In this document: one piece after another, positions 4,716 through 15,191 of the stretch
How the letters are laid out: each line of letters starts with the position of its first letter
Position numbering within the stretch: position 1 is the stretch's first letter
Source: Sinorhizobium sp. BG8
Lineage (GTDB): Bacteria; Pseudomonadota; Alphaproteobacteria; Rhizobiales; Rhizobiaceae
Length of the DNA: 64,000 bases
Direction: 5' to 3'
Assembly: GCF_016864555.1 (NCBI RefSeq)
Contig: NZ_CP044012.1
Location: 926,501 to 990,500, forward strand
Translations under genes and position numbers: made by a program
The notes under the pieces: generated by a model
Databases searched by the model: none
Seen by the model: only the letters and a program-made list of their open reading frames with translations
What the model was told of the DNA's origin: nothing

Positions 4716-6671
4716 ATGCGCTGCTTTACGGTACTCGGACCCTCGCAGACGGGAAAATCCACGCTCGTTGAAAAGCTGGGATCATTGGCCGCCGAACCGC
4801 GAACATCGACTTCCCCTTACGGATTGGGCCTGACGGAATTCGAGATCTCGGGCGAAACCTGGTGTGCGCTCGATACACCCGGATCGATCGAGTCCCTCGC
4901 CCATGCCCAGCACGCCCTGCTTGCCAGTGACGCCTGCGTGCTCTGCGTGTCTCCGTCACCGGACGCGGCCGTTCTCGCCGCTCCCTATCTGAGGGCGATC
5001 GAAGCCTCCGGTACGCCGTGCATCATCTTCGTAAACCGGATTGACGAGCCGAAGGGCCGGTTGCGCGACGTCATCGCCGCCCTGCAGGACTATTCGAGCC
5101 ACACGCTCGTGCTGCGCCAGATCCCGATCCGGGAGGGAGAGAAGGTGGTCGGCAGCGTCGATCTCATTTCCGAACGGGCCTGGCGATACCGGGAGGGACA
5201 GACCTCGTCCTTGATCGCTATTCCGGAAGAAGTGACGGAACGCGAACATGAAGCACGCACCGAGCTGCTCGAACATCTCTCGGAATTCGACGACTGGCTT
5301 TTGGAAGAGCTGATCGAAGATCGCGAGCCGGATAGCGCCGCAATCTATGCGATCTCTTCGCGCATCCTGAAGCAGAATAAGATCACACCGGTCTTCATTG
5401 GGGCGGCGAGCCACAGCAACGGCATCCTGAGGCTGATGAAGGCCCTGCGCCACGAGGCTCCGCCGGTCGAAGCGCTGCGGGGTCGGCTGGCGGAGGCAAG
5501 CGGGCTCGATGCCGCCGGCCTCATGGCCGCGACCTTCCATGGCTACCATCGGCAGAACGTCGGAAAGACGGTCCTGGCCCGTACGCTTGCAGACGGCGTG
5601 AAGCAGGGCGCGGCCATCGGTGAGGCCGGTCTTGGAACGCTGCAGGATCCAATATCGGCTCGCCCGATCGCAAACGGAGCGCTTGTTGCCGGGGCGATCT
5701 TCGCAGCGGTCAAGTCCGATCGGTTAGCCGTACCCGCGCTGCTCGCCTCCTCCGGGGCCGCGCCGCCGCCGGTCTGGACCGAACCGCCCACACCGATGCT
5801 TGAGCGAATACTCGTGCCGGGCAGCGAACGTGACGAGACCAAGCTGTCCGGCACGCTCGCAAAGCTCGCGGAAACGGACCGAAGCCTCGCGGTCTCGCAG
5901 GAGGAAGGCACGGGCGCGCATCTGATCTGCGTGCAGGGACCGCTGCACCTGCGCGATCTCAGTCGCACCTTGTCCGAAGTCTTTCATGTGGAAGTGACGG
6001 ATCAATCGCCGCGTCCGGTCTACCGCGAGACGGTGTCGAAGCCCTCCGACGTTCACTACCGCCACCGCAAGCAGACGGGTGGTGCCGGTCAGTTCGCCGA
6101 CGTAAAGCTAACCATCCATCCCAACGAACGCGGGAGCGGGTTCAGCTTTGCGGAGGTCGTCAAGGGCGGCGCGGTCCCGCGCAATTTCATACCGGCCGTA
6201 GAGGCGGGCGCGCGCGAGGCGATGGAAAAAGGCCCGCTCGGCTTCGGCGTCATCGACGTCGGGGTCACGCTAACCGATGGCCAGCACCATTCCGTCGACA
6301 GTTCGGAATTCGCATTCCGGGCGGCCGCCAAGATGGGCGTTCGCCAGGCACTCTCCCAGGCCTCGCCCGTCCTCATGCAGCCGATCAGCCGCGTGGAAAT
6401 ACACATCCCCTCGATCTACACCGGTGGTCTCGTCCAGATCGTTTCCGCACTCAAGGGACAGGTCCTCGGTTTCGACAGGGACGAGTCGGCCAAGGGATGG
6501 GATACCTTCCGGGCGCTCGTGCCGGGAAGCGCGCTCGAAGAACTTGCACGCTCGCTGCGGTCCGTAACCCAGGGCATCGGCTATTTCTCGAAGACCTTCG
6601 ATCACTTCGAGGAGCTCTACGGCAAGGAAGCCGACGCCATCGTCACGGCGCACGGCTCACACCAGAGCTGA
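4716..6671 (+). CDS. Degenerate elongation factor G paralogue
   Basis: 651-residue translational-GTPase-like protein, about 50 residues shorter than canonical EF-G. The P-loop GPSQTGKST is intact (residues 8-16), but the EF-G switch I region is missing. The G3 motif reads DTPGS (53-57), where EF-G has DTPGH with the catalytic His, and G4 reads NRID (107-110) instead of NKxD. Domains III-V are well kept: RKQTGGAGQFA, then DGQHHSVDSSEFAF in domain IV, then PISRVEIHIPS at the start of domain V. GGAGG sits 7 bp before the ATG. Known EF-G paralogues act in translocation, recycling or ribosome protection; with this G domain, normal GTP hydrolysis is doubtful. It stands alone, so its role is unknown. 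Confidence 0.85.
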   Translation: MRCFTVLGPSQTGKSTLVEKLGSLAAEPRTSTSPYGLGLTEFEISGETWCALDTPGSIESLAHAQHALLASDACVLCVSPSPDAAVLAAPYLRAIEASGTPCIIFVNRIDEPKGRLRDVIAALQDYSSHTLVLRQIPIREGEKVVGSVDLISERAWRYREGQTSSLIAIPEEVTEREHEARTELLEHLSEFDDWLLEELIEDREPDSAAIYAISSRILKQNKITPVFIGAASHSNGILRLMKALRHEAPPVEALRGRLAEASGLDAAGLMAATFHGYHRQNVGKTVLARTLADGVKQGAAIGEAGLGTLQDPISARPIANGALVAGAIFAAVKSDRLAVPALLASSGAAPPPVWTEPPTPMLERILVPGSERDETKLSGTLAKLAETDRSLAVSQEEGTGAHLICVQGPLHLRDLSRTLSEVFHVEVTDQSPRPVYRETVSKPSDVHYRHRKQTGGAGQFADVKLTIHPNERGSGFSFAEVVKGGAVPRNFIPAVEAGAREAMEKGPLGFGVIDVGVTLTDGQHHSVDSSEFAFRAAAKMGVRQALSQASPVLMQPISRVEIHIPSIYTGGLVQIVSALKGQVLGFDRDESAKGWDTFRALVPGSALEELARSLRSVTQGIGYFSKTFDHFEELYGKEADAIVTAHGSHQS

Positions 6672-6732: not shown

Positions 6733-7998
6733 CTACTTGGCGATCTCGGCCTTCACCTTGCCGACCTCGTCCGCGCTCATCTCGGAGACCGTCGTGACCT
6801 CGCCACCGGTAATCTTCCACAGGCGGAACGGACCGGTGATGTCGCCGTAGGCGTCGAAGCTGACCGGCCCGATGACGCCTTCATACTTCACCGGCTTGCC
6901 TTCCTTGATCAGCTTGAGTGCCTTGGCAAACTCGTCCTTGCCGGCATGGATCGGCTCGCCGCCTGCTGCCAGCACTTCCGGAATTGCGGCCTTGATCGCG
7001 GCAGGATCTGCCTTGCCGGCCTTGGCAATCGCCAGCGCCACGATCGCGCCCGCATCATAGGAACGGTCCGCAGCCGGCGCTGAGGCTGCAATGCCGCCGG
7101 AGAACGCTTCGTAGTTAGCGTTGAAGTACTCCGTCGAGGCGGTCGGGCTGGTGCCGGACGACGTACCGTAAGCATTCTCAAGGTACTCCGCGCCAACGGC
7201 CTCGATGAACTCCTTCGCATTCATCCCGTCATTCAGGAGGAAGGCCTGCTTGCCGCCGCCCGAGATCCAGGCGCGGGCGATCGTCGCACCATCGACGGGA
7301 TAGCTGACAAGATAGAGTGCGTCCGGCTCACCGGTCATGGCGCTGCTTGCTTCCGCGGAGTAGCTCGCCTGCTTTTCGTTGTACGGAACCGTCGCCGTAA
7401 TCGTGCCGCCAAGTTTTTCGTAAGCGGCGGCGAATTCGCGAACCATGTTCACGCCGAAGTCGTTGTTGACGTGAATGACGGCAATCTTCTTGAAGCCCTG
7501 GTCCAGCGCATACTTGGCCGCGGCCGTGCCCTGCAATGCATCCGAGGTGATGGTGCGAAAGAAGACCCCGTTGGTCTTGCCCTGGCGGCCGAGCTCGGTG
7601 AGCGTCGGGGAAGAGGAAGCAGGCGATACCTGGACCACGCCAGCAGGTGCCGTGACCGAGGTCAGGATCGGGATGGAGACCGACGAGATGATGCCGCCGA
7701 TGATGACCGGCACCTTCTTGATGTTGACGAGCTGTGTCGCCTGGTCGACGGCGACGTTGCCCTGGCTCTGGCTGTCACGCGTGTCGGTAACGAGCTTGCA
7801 GCCGTCGACTCCGCCGGCCTCGTTGAAGTCGCGGAAGGCCATCTCGACGGATTTCGCGCCGGCCTGTCCGTAGGCGCCGGCTGGGCCCGTCAATTCCATC
7901 ACCATGCCGACGGTGATGTCGCAATCGGCCGAAAGTGCCGGTGCCGCCGAAGCGGCAAGCCCCGCGAAAATGGTCGTCAGAAGCAGTCTGTTCCTCAT
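6733..7998 (-). CDS. Branched-chain-amino-acid-type ABC transporter binding protein
   Basis: 421-residue periplasmic binding protein of the LivK (Peripla_BP_6) family. A signal peptide starts MRNRLLLTT and ends at ALSA-DCD. The mature start DITVGMVMELTGPAGAYGQ is typical of the family. The start at 7998 is chosen because GGGGA lies 6 bp upstream; an ATG two codons earlier (8004) overlaps the aldo/keto reductase stop as ATGA but has no room for a ribosome site. The permeases and ATPases that match it are on the other arm of the cluster (10280-13713). LivK-type proteins also bind amides, aromatic acids and other small carboxylates, so the ligand is open. Confidence 0.9.
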   Translation of the reverse strand: MRNRLLLTTIFAGLAASAAPALSADCDITVGMVMELTGPAGAYGQAGAKSVEMAFRDFNEAGGVDGCKLVTDTRDSQSQGNVAVDQATQLVNIKKVPVIIGGIISSVSIPILTSVTAPAGVVQVSPASSSPTLTELGRQGKTNGVFFRTITSDALQGTAAAKYALDQGFKKIAVIHVNNDFGVNMVREFAAAYEKLGGTITATVPYNEKQASYSAEASSAMTGEPDALYLVSYPVDGATIARAWISGGGKQAFLLNDGMNAKEFIEAVGAEYLENAYGTSSGTSPTASTEYFNANYEAFSGGIAASAPAADRSYDAGAIVALAIAKAGKADPAAIKAAIPEVLAAGGEPIHAGKDEFAKALKLIKEGKPVKYEGVIGPVSFDAYGDITGPFRLWKITGGEVTTVSEMSADEVGKVKAEIAK

Positions 7999-8000
7999 TG

Positions 8001-9047
8001 TCATTCCCCTTTGTTGAGATTGTATTTCATGATCATGCCGTGGCGCCCTTCCCGATCGCGCTCCAGCGTGTAGACGTCGCCTTCGAGCGGCTTTGCCTGA
8101 GCAAGGATTGCGTCGATCTCCGACTTGTCCCCGGATGACAGTTTGAGCGCGGCAATTGCGAGATTGGAGGCGAGGTGCTCGCGATTGCGTGCGCCCACGA
8201 TGACGGCTGCTACGCCTGGCCTCTCCAGCATGGCGGCGCTCGCGACCGTGGCGATATCGGTCTCGTGACGATCGGCAATGCGCCTCAGCGTCGAAAGCAG
8301 CTCCTGGAACAGGTCCCAGCCGCCCAGATCGTCGATGATCAGCTTGTATTTCGTGAGCGAACGATTCTCGAGCGGATGCTCCGGCTCGCTCCTTCCGAGC
8401 CATCGATCACCAAGGAAGCCGCCAGCGACCGTGCCGTAGCAGAAGAGTGCGAAGTTCTCCTGAGCGGCGAGCTGGACCATGCTTTTTTCAGGACGCCTGT
8501 CGAGCAGGGAATACTGCAGCTGCAAGGATGTGATCGGCACGCCTGCACCGACGATCGCCTGCATGTGCTCGGTGTCGAAGTTCGTCGCACTCACGTGGCC
8601 GATCTTGCCTGCATCCTGCAGCTCCTTCAGCCAGACGGAGGTCTCCACCCAGCCCGGAATGTCGTAAGCCCACCAGTGAAACTGCACCAGATCGAGACAA
8701 TCGAGATTGAGGCGCTTGCGCGACGTGTCGATGACCTTTTCGACATAGGCCTTGGTAATGTTCGGAAGCACTGCCAGGTCGGGCACGAACTTCGTGTGGA
8801 CGCGAATGCGGCTCAGCGCTTCCTCTCCGCGCAGCTTGCGGTAGGTCGTGCGGAAGCGCCCGATCAGTTCCTCGACGCCGGTGTAGATGTCGGCGCAGTC
8901 GAAGGTAGTGATCCCCGCGTCGGCAAAGGCGATCATGTCCTCGACGGCACTGTCCCCGTCGATCGCCCCGTGTCCGCCGGCGAGCTGCCAGCCGCCGCGG
9001 ATGACCCTGGAAATCTCGTAGTTCTCCGCAATCTTCCTGCGCTGCAT
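8001..9047 (-). CDS. Aldo/keto reductase
   Basis: 348-residue NAD(P)H-dependent aldo/keto reductase, a TIM barrel. The tetrad is visible: D50 and Y55 (DCADIY), K86 (HTKFV) and H124 (QFHWW). Length is normal. It lies between the small TIGR04076-like gene and the binding-protein gene on the minus arm of cluster C. It is clearly related to the reductase half of the fusion protein at 13710-15191: both share QFHWW, YGT-x2-GGFL and a KYK-x-ID-x3-GGW-x2-FQE block. The two probably reduce or oxidise related compounds brought in by this Liv importer. Substrate unknown. Confidence 0.87.
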   Translation of the reverse strand: MQRRKIAENYEISRVIRGGWQLAGGHGAIDGDSAVEDMIAFADAGITTFDCADIYTGVEELIGRFRTTYRKLRGEEALSRIRVHTKFVPDLAVLPNITKAYVEKVIDTSRKRLNLDCLDLVQFHWWAYDIPGWVETSVWLKELQDAGKIGHVSATNFDTEHMQAIVGAGVPITSLQLQYSLLDRRPEKSMVQLAAQENFALFCYGTVAGGFLGDRWLGRSEPEHPLENRSLTKYKLIIDDLGGWDLFQELLSTLRRIADRHETDIATVASAAMLERPGVAAVIVGARNREHLASNLAIAALKLSSGDKSEIDAILAQAKPLEGDVYTLERDREGRHGMIMKYNLNKGE

Positions 9048-9056
9048 GTATGGTAC

Positions 9057-9407
9057 CTATTCGTCGTTCAAGGGAACCGCGGTGGTCGCGGCATGGCTGA
9101 AGCGGCGCAGACCCTTGCGGGTAATCCTCAGCCGCGTCGAGCAATTCGGATCCGGGCAGGCGACCTCCGCATCGGTGCTCATCCAGTCATTGGGATGGGT
9201 CTTTCGCTGCTTGGCCGCGAGCAGCGGCAGGACCGAGGCAAGAGAATAGATCGAGATGCCCTGCCCCGGCGGCAGATAGAGCATTTCGCCCTGCAACTCG
9301 AAATGGTCGCCCGGCTTCGCTCCGCAATAGACGGCGCCGCCCTGGGGGATCACAACGTCAACGCGAAGGTCGAAGAGTTCGAAGAAATCATCCGGTTGTT
9401 CAGCCAT
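9057..9407 (-). CDS. TIGR04076-like small conserved protein
   Basis: 116-residue soluble protein of unknown function starting MAEQPDDFF. The pattern of a PGDHFEL segment followed by a central LPPGQG segment and a CPDPNC motif near residue 83 resembles the TIGR04076 family, whose members carry a conserved CPDP cysteine. The start at 9407 overlaps the 3' end of the GntR gene by 8 bp; an in-frame ATG 30 bp upstream is less likely because GGAAGG precedes 9407. Its place beside an aldo/keto reductase and a transporter suggests a metabolic helper. Assignment is by motif memory only. Confidence 0.6.
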   Translation of the reverse strand: MAEQPDDFFELFDLRVDVVIPQGGAVYCGAKPGDHFELQGEMLYLPPGQGISIYSLASVLPLLAAKQRKTHPNDWMSTDAEVACPDPNCSTRLRITRKGLRRFSHAATTAVPLNDE

Positions 9408-10251
9408 AATGGGCGTCCTTCCGTGGTGGTTCGGCATCGCGGTCGAGCCGGCCGCGGATGAGATCGAAGGACCGGCTGATGTCGTTCGACAGCGAGCGGA
9501 TCGCGCCCTCGGCGTCGCCGCGTTCCATCGCCTCTATCATCGCCCAATGGTGGTTCGTCGCGGCCAGCCCTCCCTGTTCATCGTGAATGTGGGCGGCCTT
9601 CCGGATGATGGCGCCGGACTGGAGCCACAGGCTTTCGACAATGGGGATCAGCACCGGCGAGTGAGCGGCATGATAGATGTGGAAATGGAAGCGCTGGTTC
9701 AGCGCGGACGTCACGTGCCCGATGTCCTGCCCATGCTCCTCGAAAGCCCGGTCGCAATCGACGTTGATCTGCCTGAGCTTTGCGAAATCGTCGGTAGTCA
9801 GCCTGGGCAAGGCGAGCGCAACCATTTGCCCTTCGATCAGGATTCGGGCACGAGCGAGATCATCGAGCCTTGCGCGCGTGATCAGGGGAACCCGAACCGA
9901 CCTGTTGGGTAGTGCTTCCAGGGCCTGCTCGGAAACGAGCCGTCCAAGTGCCTCGCGCACGGGCATTGTGCTGGTCTGCAGCCTCTCGGCGAGATCGACG
10001 ATGCGAAGGACATCTCCCGCGTCGAACATACCGTTGATGAGAGACTGGCGCAGCTGTCCGTAGACCCGGTCGTGGACGGTCTCGCGGCCGACGGGGGAGA
10101 GTGCATCCTCGCCGGTCATGCGCTTGGCCCTGGCGTTTGCAGGACGCAGCGGGTCGGTCGCGCAGTGCAAATCGTCCCCATGAACACTCCTCGTGACAAA
10201 CGCAGTTTCCGGTTGCTTTTCTCTTCGCTCTAAAGTTTGATCAAACATCAT
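9400..10251 (-). CDS. GntR-family (FCD) transcriptional regulator
   Basis: Up to 283 residues. A winged helix begins at about residue 57 (VHDRVYGQLRQSLINGMF) with the recognition helix TSTMPVREAL, followed by an FCD effector domain with metal-type His residues (HFHIYHAA). It divides cluster C and probably controls both arms. The start is uncertain. From 10251 there would be an unusual 45-residue extension, and the first codons would overlap a perfect 12-bp palindrome. A start at 10119 (MTGEDALS) gives normal length and leaves the palindrome as an upstream operator, but lacks a strong ribosome site. Confidence 0.85.
   Translation of the reverse strand: MMFDQTLERREKQPETAFVTRSVHGDDLHCATDPLRPANARAKRMTGEDALSPVGRETVHDRVYGQLRQSLINGMFDAGDVLRIVDLAERLQTSTMPVREALGRLVSEQALEALPNRSVRVPLITRARLDDLARARILIEGQMVALALPRLTTDDFAKLRQINVDCDRAFEEHGQDIGHVTSALNQRFHFHIYHAAHSPVLIPIVESLWLQSGAIIRKAAHIHDEQGGLAATNHHWAMIEAMERGDAEGAIRSLSNDISRSFDLIRGRLDRDAEPPRKDAHYG
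10235..10246. promoter_or_regulatory. Perfect 12-bp palindrome, likely GntR operator
   Basis: GTTTGATCAAAC is fully self-complementary and lies 34 bp before the livG start, at the divergent promoter region of cluster C. GntR/FCD regulators bind short palindromes of this kind next to their own gene. No binding has been shown; the assignment rests on symmetry and position. Confidence 0.5.
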
Positions 10252-10279: not shown

Positions 10280-11085
10280 ATGCAGTCGCTTCATTCACAC
10301 GCTGCCGAGACCATCGATCCGGCGACCGCCGTCCTTGAGGCGCGCAATCTGGTGAAGCGGTTCGACGGCATGGTGGCGGTGGACAGCATGTCGCTTCGCC
10401 TCGGGGCCGGAGAACTCGTCGGCCTGATCGGGCCGAACGGCGCCGGCAAGACAACCATGTTCAACCTGATCGCCGGGAGCCTGAAGCCGAGTGCGGGTGA
10501 AATCTGGATAGCAGGTCGCGAGGTCTCGCAGGAAAGTCCGGAGAGGCGCATCGCACGCGGGTCGGACGCACCTTCCAGATTTCGCGGCCCTTTGCGCAGA
10601 TGAGCGTGCTTGAAAACGTGCTCGTGGGAGCACAGGGACAGGACGGTGAAGGGTTGTTCGCCAATTTCCTCCGGCCGCGCCACGTCCGGCAGCAGGAGAA
10701 GGCGGCCATTGAAAAGGCTCGGGCGCTTCTGGATTTCGTGACTCTCTCCGCGCTGGAAAGCCAGCCGGCGCGCGTCCTTTCCGGCGGACAGCGCAAGCTC
10801 CTCGAGCTTGCTCGGATCCTTATGGCCGATCCTCGGGCCATCCTCCTCGACGAGCCGGCGGCCGGGGTCAACCCGGCCCTGCTCGAAACGATCATGGAAC
10901 GCATACTCGCGCTCAACGCCGAGGGTAAATCCATCCTCCTGATCGAGCACAACATGGACATGGTCTCTCGTCTGTGCTCGCGCGTTGTCGCCATGGCACT
11001 CGGACGCCCGCTTGCGGAAGGAACGCCCGCGGCGGTCGCCGGAGATCCCGCAGTAATCGAAGCCTATCTCGGGGGCGCTTCATGA
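10280..11085 (+). pseudogene. livG: LivG-type ABC ATPase, interrupted by a one-base frameshift
   Basis: ATPase of the branched-chain-type importer in cluster C. The first frame (10280-10603) holds Walker A GPNGAGKTT and reads normally to RRIARG, then goes out of frame at the GGG run 10559-10561. The second frame (from about 10562, with an internal ATG at 10600) continues with the segment before MSVLENVLVG, the signature LSGGQRK and Walker B ILLDEPAAGV. One extra G would give an uninterrupted 268-residue protein with the expected GVGRTFQISRPF junction. Either the gene is broken in this strain or the base was missed in sequencing. The livF start overlaps its stop codon. Confidence 0.85.
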
Positions 11086-11825
11086 CCGCGCCCGCCCTTA
11101 GCGTCCGAGCCCTCGTCGCGGGATACGAGCCGGACCTCCCGATCGTGCGTGGTATCGACCTTTCGGTGGCGACCGGCCAACTGATTGTCCTGCTCGGCCC
11201 GAACGGCGCCGGGAAATCCACCTTCGTCAAGGCGATAGCAGGTGTTGTGCCGATCCATGGCGGCACTGTCGAGCTTGCAGGGCGAGACATCACGCGCACG
11301 CCGGCCCACCGAAAGGTGGCCGAGGGCCTGGCCTTCGTGCCGCAAACCGAAAACATCTTCGCGACCATGTCGATCCACGAGAACCTGCAGATTGCCGCGG
11401 CCCTGCTGCCGAAACCGGTGCGATCGGAACGCATCGCCGGCCTCTACAAGCGCTTTCCCGATCTTGCCCGGGATTCCCGCCGGCTCGCCGGCGCCCTCTC
11501 GGGCGGCCAGAGGCAGATGCTCGCCGTTGCCCGTGCCCTCATCGTGGATCCCGCCGTGCTGATTCTCGACGAACCCTCGGCCGGTCTTTCGCCGAAGATC
11601 GTGGGCGAGGTCTTCCACATGCTGAAGGAGATCAATGGGGCCGGCGTCACCATCGTGCTGGTCGAGCAGAACGTGAAGGCGGCACTTGCGATCGCCGACC
11701 GCGCCATGATCCTCGTCGAGGGAAAGATCCGCCACACGGGCGAGGCCGCAACGCTGCTCGGCGATCCGGTCGTCGCGAAGCTCTACCTCGGCAGTGGGGC
11801 TGCCCCGAAAGAGGTGAAGCCATGA
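11082..11825 (+). CDS. livF: Branched-chain-type ABC transporter ATPase, LivF type
   Basis: 247-residue ATPase starting MTAPALSVRALVAGY. It has Walker A GPNGAGKST, signature LSGGQRQ and Walker B LILDEPSAGLSP, which is the LivF pattern. The ATG overlaps the livG stop (ATGA) and the gene overlaps livH by 4 bp, so the four transporter genes are translationally coupled. A start about 108 bp upstream is possible on paper but lies inside livG with no homology. It powers import together with LivG. Confidence 0.9.
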   Translation: MTAPALSVRALVAGYEPDLPIVRGIDLSVATGQLIVLLGPNGAGKSTFVKAIAGVVPIHGGTVELAGRDITRTPAHRKVAEGLAFVPQTENIFATMSIHENLQIAAALLPKPVRSERIAGLYKRFPDLARDSRRLAGALSGGQRQMLAVARALIVDPAVLILDEPSAGLSPKIVGEVFHMLKEINGAGVTIVLVEQNVKAALAIADRAMILVEGKIRHTGEAATLLGDPVVAKLYLGSGAAPKEVKP

Positions 11826-12733
11826 ACCCGCAATTTCTTATGGACGGCCTCATCGCCGGTGCGATGATCGGACTTGGTGCCGTGGGAGTGACCCTCACCT
11901 ACTCGATCCTCCGCTTCTCGAACTTCGCCCACGGGGAGTTCCTTTCCTGGGGTGCCTACATCGCGCTGGCGATCAGCAGCGGGCTCGGATATCTTTCGAC
12001 CGCCTTCAAGGCACCGATCGCACCGTTCTCCTTCGGCTGGTCCCTGCCGATAGCCGCCATACTCGCCATCGGCCTGACGGGGCTGCTTGCCCTTGCCGTG
12101 GATGCACTCCTGTTCGGTCGTCTTCGTGCACGTGGTGCCGCGGTGATCATCCTGGTGATGGCCAGTTTCGGCGCATCCCTGGCGCTCAGGAGCCTGCTCG
12201 AATTCATCTTCACCTCGAATCCGGCCTACTACACCAAAGCGCTCCAGATCGCGGTCGGTATTGGTGGCGGCCTGCGTGCCACCCCCGACCAGTTGCTGTC
12301 TCTCGGTCTTGCAGCGGTCGCGGTCGCCGCGGTCCATCTGTTGATGACCCGCACGGATATCGGCCGCGCCATGCGGGCCGTCAGCGAAAATCCGGCCCTT
12401 GCCGGCATTGCCGGCATTGATGTGCGCAAGGTGATCCGCACCGTCTGGCTGCTCGGCGCAGCACTCGCCTGCGTAGCTGGGATGATGGTCGGGCTCCTCG
12501 TCCAGATCCGCCCCTACCTCGGCCACGATCTGCTGCTGCCGCTGTTTGCGGCTGCAATTCTCGGCGGCATCGGCAGCGTTCCGGGCGCCATGATTGCAGG
12601 CCTTCTCGTCGGTCTTTCCGAGGCACTTGCGGTGCAGGTGGTCGGCGCCGAGTGGCGTGCCGCCGTTTCCTTCGTCATCCTCGTGGCCGTGCTTGTCGCG
12701 CGGCCTCGCGGCCTGTTCGGGAGACCGGCATGA
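11822..12733 (+). CDS. livH: Branched-chain-type ABC transporter permease, LivH type
   Basis: 303-residue inner-membrane permease of the BPD_transp_2 family. The N-terminal MDGLIAGAMIGLGAVGVTLTY, the FAHGEF segment and the C-terminal LGGIGSVPGAMIAG are LivH hallmarks. It overlaps livF upstream and livM downstream by 4 bp each. It should pair with LivM to form the channel. Confidence 0.9.
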   Translation: MNPQFLMDGLIAGAMIGLGAVGVTLTYSILRFSNFAHGEFLSWGAYIALAISSGLGYLSTAFKAPIAPFSFGWSLPIAAILAIGLTGLLALAVDALLFGRLRARGAAVIILVMASFGASLALRSLLEFIFTSNPAYYTKALQIAVGIGGGLRATPDQLLSLGLAAVAVAAVHLLMTRTDIGRAMRAVSENPALAGIAGIDVRKVIRTVWLLGAALACVAGMMVGLLVQIRPYLGHDLLLPLFAAAILGGIGSVPGAMIAGLLVGLSEALAVQVVGAEWRAAVSFVILVAVLVARPRGLFGRPA

Positions 12734-13713
12734 GCCTCGACATCCTCGCCTATGCGGCGTTTTTCCTGACCATGGCCCTGACCTACGCGATCATGTGCCT
12801 CGGCCTCAACGTGCAATGGGGCCAGACGGGTCTCTTCAATGTCGGGATTGCCGCATTCGTTGCCATCGGCGCCTATGCTTCCGCCTTGCTGACAACACCC
12901 GAGACGGCCGATCGGCTGGGCGGTTTCGGCCTGCCGATCGCCGTCGGCTGGCTTGGTGGCGCCCTTGCGGCCGGCGCCGTCGCCTGGCTGGTCGGCGCGC
13001 TGACCATCCGGCTTCGTTCCGACTATCTGGCGATTGCCACCTTCGGCGTTGCGGTATGCGTTCAGCTCTGCGTTCTCAACTTGCAATCGATCACCGGTGG
13101 GGCATTCGGCATCGGGTTCATTCCACGCCCGTTCGACAGCTATGCATCGGAGCCGCTCGCATTCGGGCTCGGCAACCTTGTCTTGATGACGGGCGTCGTC
13201 GTCCTGCTCTATCTCGCACTCGAGCACATGGCGAGGAGCCCCTGGGGCCGTGTTCTAAGGGCAATCCGCGAGGATGAGACCGCCGCCCAGGCGCTCGGAA
13301 AACGGGCGATCCGCTTTCGCTTGCAGGCATTCACCATAGGCGGCGCCATCATGGGACTCGCAGGTGCGGCACAGGGGCATTTCATCGGCTTCATCGCACC
13401 CGACAACTACATGCCCATCCTCACCTTCCAGGTCTGGGCCATGCTCATCGTCGGAGGATCCGGCAACAATCGCGGCGCAATCCTCGGCGCGGTCCTCGTC
13501 TGGGGCATATGGGCCCTGTCAGCGGCCGGCGTCTCCGCCTTCGTCCCGCCGGAACAGCAGGCTCGGGCCGCCTCGCTGCAGATCGTGGCGATCGGCGTGG
13601 GGCTCTGCCTCATACTCCTTCTCCGCCCCCGCGGCATCCTCGGTGAAATCAGCGTCCTGTCCCGGCTGGCCCGGCGTCGCGAACCGCAATCCTCCATGGA
13701 ACAAAGATCATGA
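12730..13713 (+). CDS. livM: Branched-chain-type ABC transporter permease, LivM type
   Basis: 327-residue inner-membrane permease with the LivM features YAIMCLGLNVQWGQTGLFNVG near the N-terminus and RSDYLAIATFG in the middle. The ATG at 12730 overlaps the livH stop, and the gene overlaps the downstream reductase-RidA gene by 4 bp. That ties the fusion enzyme to the transport operon. Confidence 0.9.
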   Translation: MSLDILAYAAFFLTMALTYAIMCLGLNVQWGQTGLFNVGIAAFVAIGAYASALLTTPETADRLGGFGLPIAVGWLGGALAAGAVAWLVGALTIRLRSDYLAIATFGVAVCVQLCVLNLQSITGGAFGIGFIPRPFDSYASEPLAFGLGNLVLMTGVVVLLYLALEHMARSPWGRVLRAIREDETAAQALGKRAIRFRLQAFTIGGAIMGLAGAAQGHFIGFIAPDNYMPILTFQVWAMLIVGGSGNNRGAILGAVLVWGIWALSAAGVSAFVPPEQQARAASLQIVAIGVGLCLILLLRPRGILGEISVLSRLARRREPQSSMEQRS

Positions 13714-15191
13714 CCTCAAAGCCCGAACGCATTGCGCTTACCGAAAACCTCGGGATCAGCCGTCTCGTGTGCGGCCTGTGGCAAGTCGCGGACATCGAGA
13801 AAAATGGTACGACCATCGATCCGGACACGGGGGCAGATGCGCTCGAGGCCTATGCCAAGGGCGGCTTCGACACCTTCGACATGGCCGATCACTATGGCAC
13901 GGCGGAGATCATCACCGGCCGGCTCCTGTCGCGCTACCCCACCCGCGAAGGACGCCCGGTCGCTTTCACCAAGTGGTGCCCCGAGCCCGGTCTCATGACA
14001 CGCGAGGTCGTACGGCGCGGCGTCGAGGAGCGCCTGACGCGGCTTGGTGTGGAAAAGATCGACCTCCTGCAGTTTCACTGGTGGACATTCGAACACCCGG
14101 CCTGGCTCGATGCCCTTCACGAAATGGAAGAAATGCGCCGGGAGGGCCTGATCGAGGCGCTTGGCGTCACGAACTTCGACGCTGCGCATCTGGCGGTTGC
14201 CCTGGCGGATGGTATACGTATCGCCACCAACCAGGTTTCTTTCTCGCTTGTGGACCGCCGCGCCGCCGGTTCCCTGTCGGAACTCTGCGCCAGAACCGGT
14301 GTTCGGCTGCTTGCCTACGGCACGCTTTGCGGCGGCTTCCTTTCTGAAAAGTGGCTGGGGCAGCCGGAACCGCAACAGATTCCGGACTGGAGCCGATCGA
14401 AGTACAAGCGCTTCATCGACACAGCGGGGGGATGGCAGGCTTTCCAGGAGATCCTGAGCGCCGCTGCCGCGATCGCGACGAAGCACGGCGTGTCGCTCTC
14501 CAACGTGGCGAGCCGCTGGGTTCTAGAGCACGAGGCCGTGGCGGCAACGATCATTGGCGCGCGGCTTGGCGAAAGTGAGCACCGAGACGACAATCTCAAG
14601 GTCTTCAGCTTCGCGCTCGATGACGACGACCGCATCGCCCTCGATGCGGCCTTCGCGGCGACCCGTCCCATTCCCGGCGACTGCGGTGACGAATACCGCA
14701 AGCCGCCGTTCCTTACGGCCTCCGGCGACCTCAGCCACCATCTCGACGCCATTCCCTCGATCTACAAGGCGCAGGCTGTTTCGGGGAAACCCGGCCGGTT
14801 CCGCGTCTCGTCGGGCAGCGTATGGGAACCGATCGCCGGCTACAGCCGTGCGGTGCGCATTGGCGAACGCATTCTCGTCTCCGGAACCACCGCCACCCAT
14901 GCCGCCGACCGCTGTGTGGCTCCCGGTGATGCGGGAGCACAGACGACCTATGTGCTGGACAAGATCGCAGCCTCGATCGCGGCACTCGGCGGAAGCATGG
15001 AGGACGTCGTTCGCACCCGCATCTACCTTCGCAACGCCGATCTCTGGGAGCCGGTGTCGCGCGCCCATGGCCGCGTCTTCGGAGAGATCCTTCCCGCCAA
15101 TACCCTGATCGAGGCGGGAAACCTCGTCGGCGACTACGAAGTGGAAATAGAGGCAGAAGCGATCTGCACGGAAGGCCTTCCTTCTCTCTGA
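13710..15191 (+). CDS. Aldo/keto reductase fused to a RidA-type domain
   Basis: 493-residue two-domain cytoplasmic enzyme. Residues 1 to about 325 are an aldo/keto reductase with tetrad D57, Y62, K88 and H123. Residues about 365-487 are a RidA/YjgF/TdcF-like domain (RAVRIGERILVSGT, then VVRTRIYL, then a LIEAGNL segment). Canonical RidA has an Arg in the PAR motif that binds the imine carboxylate; here the position reads PAN (Asn 464), so imine deaminase activity is doubtful and this is probably a Rid4-7-type domain. ATGA overlap with livM makes it the last gene of the plus arm. Fusing both folds suggests that a reactive carbonyl or enamine intermediate is processed in one enzyme. Confidence 0.85.
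   Translation: MTSKPERIALTENLGISRLVCGLWQVADIEKNGTTIDPDTGADALEAYAKGGFDTFDMADHYGTAEIITGRLLSRYPTREGRPVAFTKWCPEPGLMTREVVRRGVEERLTRLGVEKIDLLQFHWWTFEHPAWLDALHEMEEMRREGLIEALGVTNFDAAHLAVALADGIRIATNQVSFSLVDRRAAGSLSELCARTGVRLLAYGTLCGGFLSEKWLGQPEPQQIPDWSRSKYKRFIDTAGGWQAFQEILSAAAAIATKHGVSLSNVASRWVLEHEAVAATIIGARLGESEHRDDNLKVFSFALDDDDRIALDAAFAATRPIPGDCGDEYRKPPFLTASGDLSHHLDAIPSIYKAQAVSGKPGRFRVSSGSVWEPIAGYSRAVRIGERILVSGTTATHAADRCVAPGDAGAQTTYVLDKIAASIAALGGSMEDVVRTRIYLRNADLWEPVSRAHGRVFGEILPANTLIEAGNLVGDYEVEIEAEAICTEGLPSL

Follow-up and report, generated by a model that had tools for sequence, protein, structure and literature searches.

Gene organization of the locus

The window, that is, the whole stretch of 64,000 nucleotides of Sinorhizobium sp. 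BG8 DNA that was analysed, contains a single open reading frame of 493 codons with an ATG start at positions 13710-15191 of the plus strand. The encoded protein matched two Pfam families, the aldo/keto reductase (AKR) family PF00248 (E 2.2e-58, residues 18-313, profile positions 1-288 of 291) and the Rid family PF01042 (residues 373-485, E 5.2e-21, 75.3 bits with a cut-off of 27.3), and so the fusion of a reductase with a RidA-type domain proposed in the sequence-only reading was confirmed. With NCBIfam, both halves gave matches below cut-off only, and the Rid domain scored 49.9 bits with TIGR00004 (Rid family detoxifying hydrolase), under its cut-off of 106.25. As judged by sequence, the protein belongs to the AKR superfamily by the PF00248 fold and the tetrad, and to the Rid family by PF01042 and the Rid fold. 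The features of the gene were as follows:

13710..15191, plus strand: AKR-Rid fusion protein, 493 aa, one open reading frame with PF00248 and PF01042, conserved over its full length
13761..14648, plus strand: aldo/keto reductase domain, residues 18-313 (Pfam), with the tetrad D57/Y62/K88/H123 and fold matches to solved AKRs
14673..14747, plus strand: reductase tail or linker, residues 322-346, near-invariant (PGDCGDEYRKPPFLTASGDLSHHLD), recognised by conservation
14826..15164, plus strand: Rid (YjgF/YER057c/UK114) domain, residues 373-485 (Pfam), with the invariant motif P462-A463-N464-T465, E479 and a fold match to 3i7t

The genes next to the fusion were those of a Liv-type importer together with a second reductase:

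6733..8004, minus strand: Liv-type substrate-binding protein (SBP), start inferred (PF13458)
8001..9047, minus strand: AKR2, a second, stand-alone AKR (PF00248), 37% identical to the AKR half of the fusion
9057..9407, minus strand: protein of the TIGR04076 family (58.1 bits, cut-off 33), its start chosen inside the ORF 9057-9437
9400..10251, minus strand: GntR/FCD transcriptional regulator (PF00392 and PF07729)
10280..11085, plus strand: LivG-type ATPase, two half ORFs, frame interrupted near 10561-10603 (PF00005, BCA_ABC_TP_C)
11082..11825, plus strand: LivF-type ATPase (PF00005) with a start inferred inside its ORF
11822..12733, plus strand: LivH-type permease (PF02653)
12730..13713, plus strand: LivM-type permease (PF02653) with a start chosen inside its ORF

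The cluster is divergent, with the SBP, AKR2, TIGR04076 and GntR genes on the minus strand and livG, livF, livH, livM and the fusion on the plus strand. The ATG of the fusion overlaps the livM-type stop codon by 4 bases, and the fusion is therefore the last gene of the liv row; downstream of it lies, on the opposite strand, an ABC exporter as judged by sequence. AKR2 is located about 5 kb from the fusion in the source genome. Comparison of the SBP gave distant Liv/GABA-type matches and, in the PDB, amino-acid binders only, from which no substrate could be named. The LivG of one relative (L009) is encoded in one frame and matched the livG of the window in two frames; the split in the window reflects either a genuine pseudogene or an error in the sequence. 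A gene for an EF-G-like protein (GTP_EFTU, EFG_III, EFG_IV and EFG_C; 4716-6671, plus strand) also adjoins the cluster in the window, and it was labelled in none of the other loci of the neighbourhood comparison.

Conservation and distribution of the fusion

A scan of genome contigs, which used short patterns and covered genomes from every phylum, gave 323 relatives, and the best 80 of these were all full-length fusions in one frame. Likewise, a one-frame full-length fusion was found in 102 of the 117 collected loci (the window's own region, L001, among them), the other 15 (L002-L008 and L110-L117) being AKR-only or Rid-only paralogues that had been collected as such. Identity among the aligned relatives of the fusion went as low as 57%. 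The join is thus old and conserved and not an artefact. A stop codon missing in this strain only, which would have undone the sequence-only reading, was excluded by this conservation across genomes. That the fusion is an annotation curiosity, produced by such a missing stop codon or by an assembly error in the source strain, could be suspected from the broken frame of livG just upstream, where a local sequence error is possible; however, the identical join is present in 101 other loci, and we dismiss this explanation as extremely improbable.

The source genome carries one copy of the fusion. The draws of genomes from the family, the class and the phylum, in all of which the own genome is counted, gave matches in 28 of 151 genomes at E 1e-50 (the fusion in 22, AKR2-type matches only in the other six), in 9 of 385 at E 1e-75 and in 7 of 398 Pseudomonadota genomes at E 1e-75, respectively, and all seven of the last were Alphaproteobacteria. 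When an alignment was used as the query, 20 of 198 genomes of another family of the class matched at E 1e-80. The fusion is therefore patchy within the Alphaproteobacteria. One record titled Mycobacterium sp. KBS0706 (L065) carries a fusion 78% identical to the window protein, and it was taken for a probably misnamed alphaproteobacterium because both the match and the gene order resemble those of Inquilinus loci.

The lone exception met was a remnant on an Ensifer adhaerens plasmid (L151), which matched only residues 197-486. This 3′ part of the fusion gene (9001-9870 of that locus) stands beside D-hydantoinase-like and cysteine-desulfurase-like genes, as judged by eye.

Conserved residues in both halves

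For the conservation counts, the 131 full-length hits, some of which are overlapping views of one genome, were reduced to 103 distinct sequences. Asp57, Tyr62, Lys88 and His123, the AKR catalytic tetrad, were kept in all 103, as was R285. In the Rid half, P462, A463, N464 and T465 (Pro-Ala-Asn-Thr) and E479 were each present in 103/103, and W372, E373 and H453 were likewise invariant (103/103 each). Position 378, which by our own reading of the alignment would correspond to Tyr17 of RidA, was Y in 91 sequences, F in 10 and H in two. The mean frequency of the top residue was 0.80 over residues 1-320, rose to 0.87 in 321-372 and was 0.84 in 373-486; residues 322-346 were largely invariant, yet the model confidence was low in the blocks covering 331-350. 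The dN/dS values from eight pairs with relatives were about 0.06-0.13 in both halves, and they are rough, as dS reached at least 0.95 in every pair for either half. One chain within an import cluster thus holds two conserved, intact-looking sites.

This conservation bears on the view that the Rid domain is a non-catalytic structural module, which trimerises and thereby scaffolds three reductase domains. The catalytic Arg is absent from the domain, and Rid proteins typically form trimers according to PMC4433059, both of which would suit a scaffold; however, W372, E373, H453, N464, T465 and E479, which sequence comparison places in the putative pocket, are needlessly invariant for such a role, and the Rid and AKR parts have equally low dN/dS. 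We consider a purely structural role unlikely.

The Asn at the position of the RidA Arg

In RidA, the Arg presumably binds the carboxylate of the substrate. At the equivalent of this catalytic Arg105 all 103 distinct fusions have Asn464, in agreement with the Asn that the sequence-only reading had placed at the Arg position of the PAR motif, and by this residue the domain falls outside RidA. With invariant E479 and N464 it corresponds instead to an Arg-less Rid (Glu kept, Arg replaced) as defined in a survey by Niehaus (2015; PMC4433059). The survey states that the Arg is essential for RidA activity, describes four Rid subfamilies, Rid4-7, without it, and calls the activities of Rid4-7 completely unknown.

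A Rid tree, built by a quick search without bootstrap, included 12 domains from fusions and 23 stand-alone ones. The stand-alone rows came from the collected loci only, and for inclusion a match needed at least 25 bits, a span of at least about 95 residues and an ORF shorter than 420 aa; the L151 remnant was excluded. The fused domains formed one side of the tree (SH-aLRT 97). On the neighbouring branch stood eight stand-alone Rids, seven of which (two of them near-identical) have Asn-Thr at the motif; the eighth, from the source genome, has Ala-Thr. The forks relevant to the Arg question had SH-aLRT values of 86 and 91. Because seven of the eight neighbouring stand-alone Rids share the Asn, it was most likely inherited rather than produced by loss of the Arg through the fusion, and a recent loss found no support in the tree. 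The earlier wording, that the domain "has lost" the Arg, is consequently not upheld: all 103 distinct fusions carry the Asn, as do 7/8 of the nearest stand-alone Rids, and PMC4433059 describes Rid4-7 as Arg-less. As to the subfamily, our guess would be Rid6.

Counting the fusion, the source genome has 10 Rid loci. It also encodes a three-Rid-domain protein in one 413-codon open frame (L175-L177; G000:C2:817889-819046). In L145 (264-1803), an Asn-type stand-alone Rid (RPTNT) borders a fusion cluster and lies beside a gene that looks, by eye, glyoxalase/cupin-like.

Predicted structure and comparison with known proteins

The single-chain model of the whole fusion had a pLDDT of 88.5 and a pTM of 0.90. 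All VIA rows for this full model were AKR-type matches to residues 1-349, and the Rid half was for this reason folded alone (single-chain model; pLDDT 88.1, pTM 0.84). The AKR half matched many solved AKRs; Z values of its top ten VIA rows ranged from 28.0 to 30.3. Its fold and tetrad are shared with AKR11-type reductases (AKR11B4, 3n2t; IolS, 1pyf) and with DepB (8hwn), for which VIA gave, in this order, Z 29.1, 28.4 and 28.7, rmsd 3.0, 2.9 and 2.7, and 302, 302 and 292 residues. The best sequence match was also 3n2t (77.7 bits). The three proteins are 23-27% identical in these VIA alignments and match the AKR half alone.

For the Rid half, the best PDB match and closest solved relative was 3i7t (Rv2704), with E 6.6e-14, rmsd 1.4 and 40% identity in the fold alignment, and with PVTS at the motif. 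Like the fusion, Rid4-Rid7 proteins and Rv2704 have the Rid fold, the conserved Glu and a residue other than Arg at the RidA Arg position, but they are small stand-alone proteins, whereas the fusion carries its Rid domain C-terminal to an AKR. The imine and aminoacrylate deaminases RidA and RutC have the same fold and belong to the same family, yet the essential Arg of RidA is Asn in the fusion.

Other Rid fusions reportedly include tandem 3x-RidA proteins and RidA domains in DUF71 proteins; these are multidomain like the AKR-Rid protein, in which, however, the partner is an oxidoreductase. That Rid domains occur in multidomain proteins is noted in PMC4433059. The sequence-only reading had called the arrangement rarely described, which fits the literature matches listed: no AKR-Rid fusion was described in their titles and abstract openings, most subscription journals lying outside this set. 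The AKR-Rid family is a new combination of known kinds of components.

Conservation of the gene neighbourhood

For 105 fusion loci with flanks, the neighbours of the fusion were compared. AKR2 and TIGR04076 genes were each found in 92 of these loci, the SBP gene in 93, LivG, LivF and LivH genes in 98 each, the LivM gene in 99 and the GntR gene in 81, and all eight core neighbours occurred together in 81/105; some of these loci end at a contig edge, and the score threshold for GntR misses divergent regulators. In one neighbour survey, ORFs with low third-position GC were excluded, and so L202 yielded no neighbours there. Some loci had no core gene among the eight, namely L077, which is cut by a contig end, and L131, L138, L140, L143 and L148. 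By eye, the fusion adjoins a flavin-monooxygenase-like gene in L138 and glycine-dehydrogenase-like genes in L140, and in L148 it stands beside amino-acid and polyamine transporters.

A second recurrent setting was seen in L148, L205, L207, L209 and L140, where the fusion is near a polar-amino-acid-type ABC transporter; a polysaccharide-deacetylase-family gene was also present in L148, L207 and L209.

A tree of AKRs placed the AKR halves of 18 fusions together on one side (SH-aLRT 100); 33 AKR2-type rows were adjacent to them (90), and outside stood four further AKRs encoded by the source genome. Further AKR2-type matches on plasmids without the fusion were H18, H20 and H21.

The TIGR04076 protein was considered as a clue to function and dropped, as the one paper listed (PMC8667426) offers redox or iron-cluster roles as guesses only.

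Proposed function of the fusion

We tentatively propose, with somewhat less than even confidence, that the fusion is a catabolic enzyme with two activities, the AKR carrying out a carbonyl step and the Arg-less Rid handling a reactive, probably carboxylate-free imine or enamine. The importer would bring in an amino-acid-like or aromatic-amine compound, and the AKR half may use NAD(P)(H) to interconvert a carbonyl and an alcohol on this nitrogen-containing compound. With Glu479, and with Asn464 replacing Arg, the Rid half would hydrolyse or tautomerise an imine, enamine or like reactive product, probably a substrate without an alpha-carboxylate (imine/enamine or enol). Covalent linkage, and perhaps also Rid trimerisation, could keep the reactive product close. 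A carbonyl reaction coupled to the handling of a reactive intermediate is the best reading of the arrangement. Counting against the proposal are the fusion loci that have none of the core genes, the broken livG frame of the source genome and its lack of tryptophan 2,3-dioxygenase and kynureninase genes (see below).

In strain S33, a Rid6 protein of the nicotine cluster has been proposed to remove the enamine or imine of an amine oxidase, which is itself a prediction (PMC7688666). The Rid5/6-like Y3550 of another organism is described as not a functional RidA deaminase (PMC7221256); by analogy, this would be in line with either a different substrate or an absence of imine activity.

The conserved fusion fixes one partner activity for an Arg-less Rid, and its gene neighbourhood restricts the chemistry to compounds that are amino-acid-like or aromatic amines; the long-standing gap in the function of Rid4-7 thereby becomes directly testable.

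Association with tryptophan breakdown

A tryptophan 2,3-dioxygenase (TDO) match of at least 100 bits was found in 9 of 119 fusion loci (L041, L055, L074, L078, L084, L130, L198, L199 and L201), and in the stretch examined for the other 110 there was none. The TDO of L041 was identified as TIGR03036 (421.8 bits) and its neighbour as the kynureninase TIGR01814 (268.4 bits), both over cut-off. Convergent Rid-TDO-CoA-ligase rows were one arrangement, with kynU confirmed by name in L041 only; L084 has the convergent TDO and CoA ligase without the Rid. In L199 the gene following the fusion, in the same orientation, is TDO; in L198 TDO lies beyond the binding-protein gene. In G037 a co-directional livGFHM-kynU-TDO (kynA)-fusion row was found, with 119 and 76 bases between matched stretches. 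NCBIfam named a neighbouring monooxygenase bifunctional salicylyl-CoA 5-hydroxylase/oxidoreductase, which we presume, from its kynureninase neighbours, to be a 2-aminobenzoyl-CoA enzyme. A hydrolase considered as a candidate formamidase (KFase2) bears the NCBIfam name hormone-sensitive lipase, and so no formamidase is claimed.

Within the family sample of 151 genomes, TDO was present in 19/22 fusion genomes vs 57/129 others (Fisher p 3.4e-4), leaving three of the 22 without it, and kynureninase in 18/22 vs 63/129 (p 0.005), kinship being ignored in both comparisons. Of the 19 genomes with both TDO and the fusion, four (G037, G066, G079 and G150) had the two genes no more than 5 kb apart, against about 0.04 expected by random placement, where the 5-kb limit was set afterwards, two of the four share one genus and phylogeny is ignored. 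The source genome itself has no TDO, no kynureninase at E 1e-40 and, for a monooxygenase of the salicylyl-CoA/2-aminobenzoyl-CoA type, partial matches only, to the C-terminal half of that enzyme.

These data raise the alternative that the fusion works inside tryptophan/kynurenine catabolism proper, for example by removing a reactive carbonyl or imine that derives from kynurenine, and not on a separately imported compound. TDO and, where checked, the kynureninase and CoA-ligase/monooxygenase pathway are adjacent in at least four arrangements, as this would predict; the absence of TDO and kynureninase from the source genome and of TDO from the examined stretch of 110/119 fusion loci, however, leaves it improbable. 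From the same absences it follows that the chemistry is usable with or without the pathway, or that the link is limited to certain lineages.

A flavoprotein in the place of the fusion

Four fusion-less Liv-AKR2-TIGR04076 clusters (L150, L153, L154 and L155), which had been picked by their reductase and without the flavoprotein as a query, all contained a DAO-family-like flavoprotein. That of L150 belongs to the DAO family PF01266, and its best NCBIfam match was L-pipecolate oxidase (296.6 bits, below the cut-off of 600); those of L153, L154 and L155 matched it with 356, 348 and 755 bits, respectively. The gene lies directly after livM, the place of the fusion elsewhere, in L150 and L155, and beside the SBP gene in L153 and L154. 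Loci of the L150 layout (L230-L233) were also found by a flavoprotein search, the flavoprotein itself being the query. In one genus, the slot after livM is occupied by the flavoprotein in G072, G591, G635 and G678, while G700 and G703 carry the fusion; G703 also has a more distant flavoprotein elsewhere in its genome. None of the 105 fusion loci had an L150-type flavoprotein at 150 bits or more. An 87-bit flavoprotein match lies beside the fusion in L198, and other flavoproteins, as judged by eye, in L134 and L208; mutual exclusion is therefore not strict for the wider family.

Five of the eight nearest stand-alone Rids (with a near-identical pair among the five) were located in flavoprotein loci, L153, L218, L219, L222 and L236; four of the five came from the flavoprotein search, three from its 20 short loci and one from a longer stretch. 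DUF3830 was found in seven flavoprotein clusters (absent from L153) and in 0/105 fusion loci.

The fusion might accordingly be regarded as functionally replacing the combination of a flavin amine oxidase with a stand-alone Asn-type Rid; both arrangements would yield the substrate of AKR2 and TIGR04076 from one imported compound. The exchange of fusion and flavoprotein in the slot after livM within one genus (G700 and G703 against G072, G591, G635 and G678) and the absence of the flavoprotein, at 150 bits, from 105/105 fusion loci speak for this. However, AKRs are not known to oxidise C-N bonds; the DUF3830 counts suggest that the substrates may differ, and L230-L233 were retrieved by the flavoprotein itself. 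We think this substitution quite unlikely.

Returning to the bifunctional enzyme proposed above, a more specific version, to which we give low confidence, is that the Asn-type Rid branch partners amine-oxidising enzymes on carboxylate-free imines or enamines, and that the fusion would be a nicotinamide-dependent, self-contained pair feeding aromatic-amine (tryptophan/kynurenine-type) catabolism. If true, partnership with amine oxidation would be the first function for that Rid branch.

As a separate observation, the pair of TIGR04076 protein and AKR2-type reductase was seen outside fusion clusters too, in L150, in L153-L158 and on a haloarchaeal plasmid (L161).
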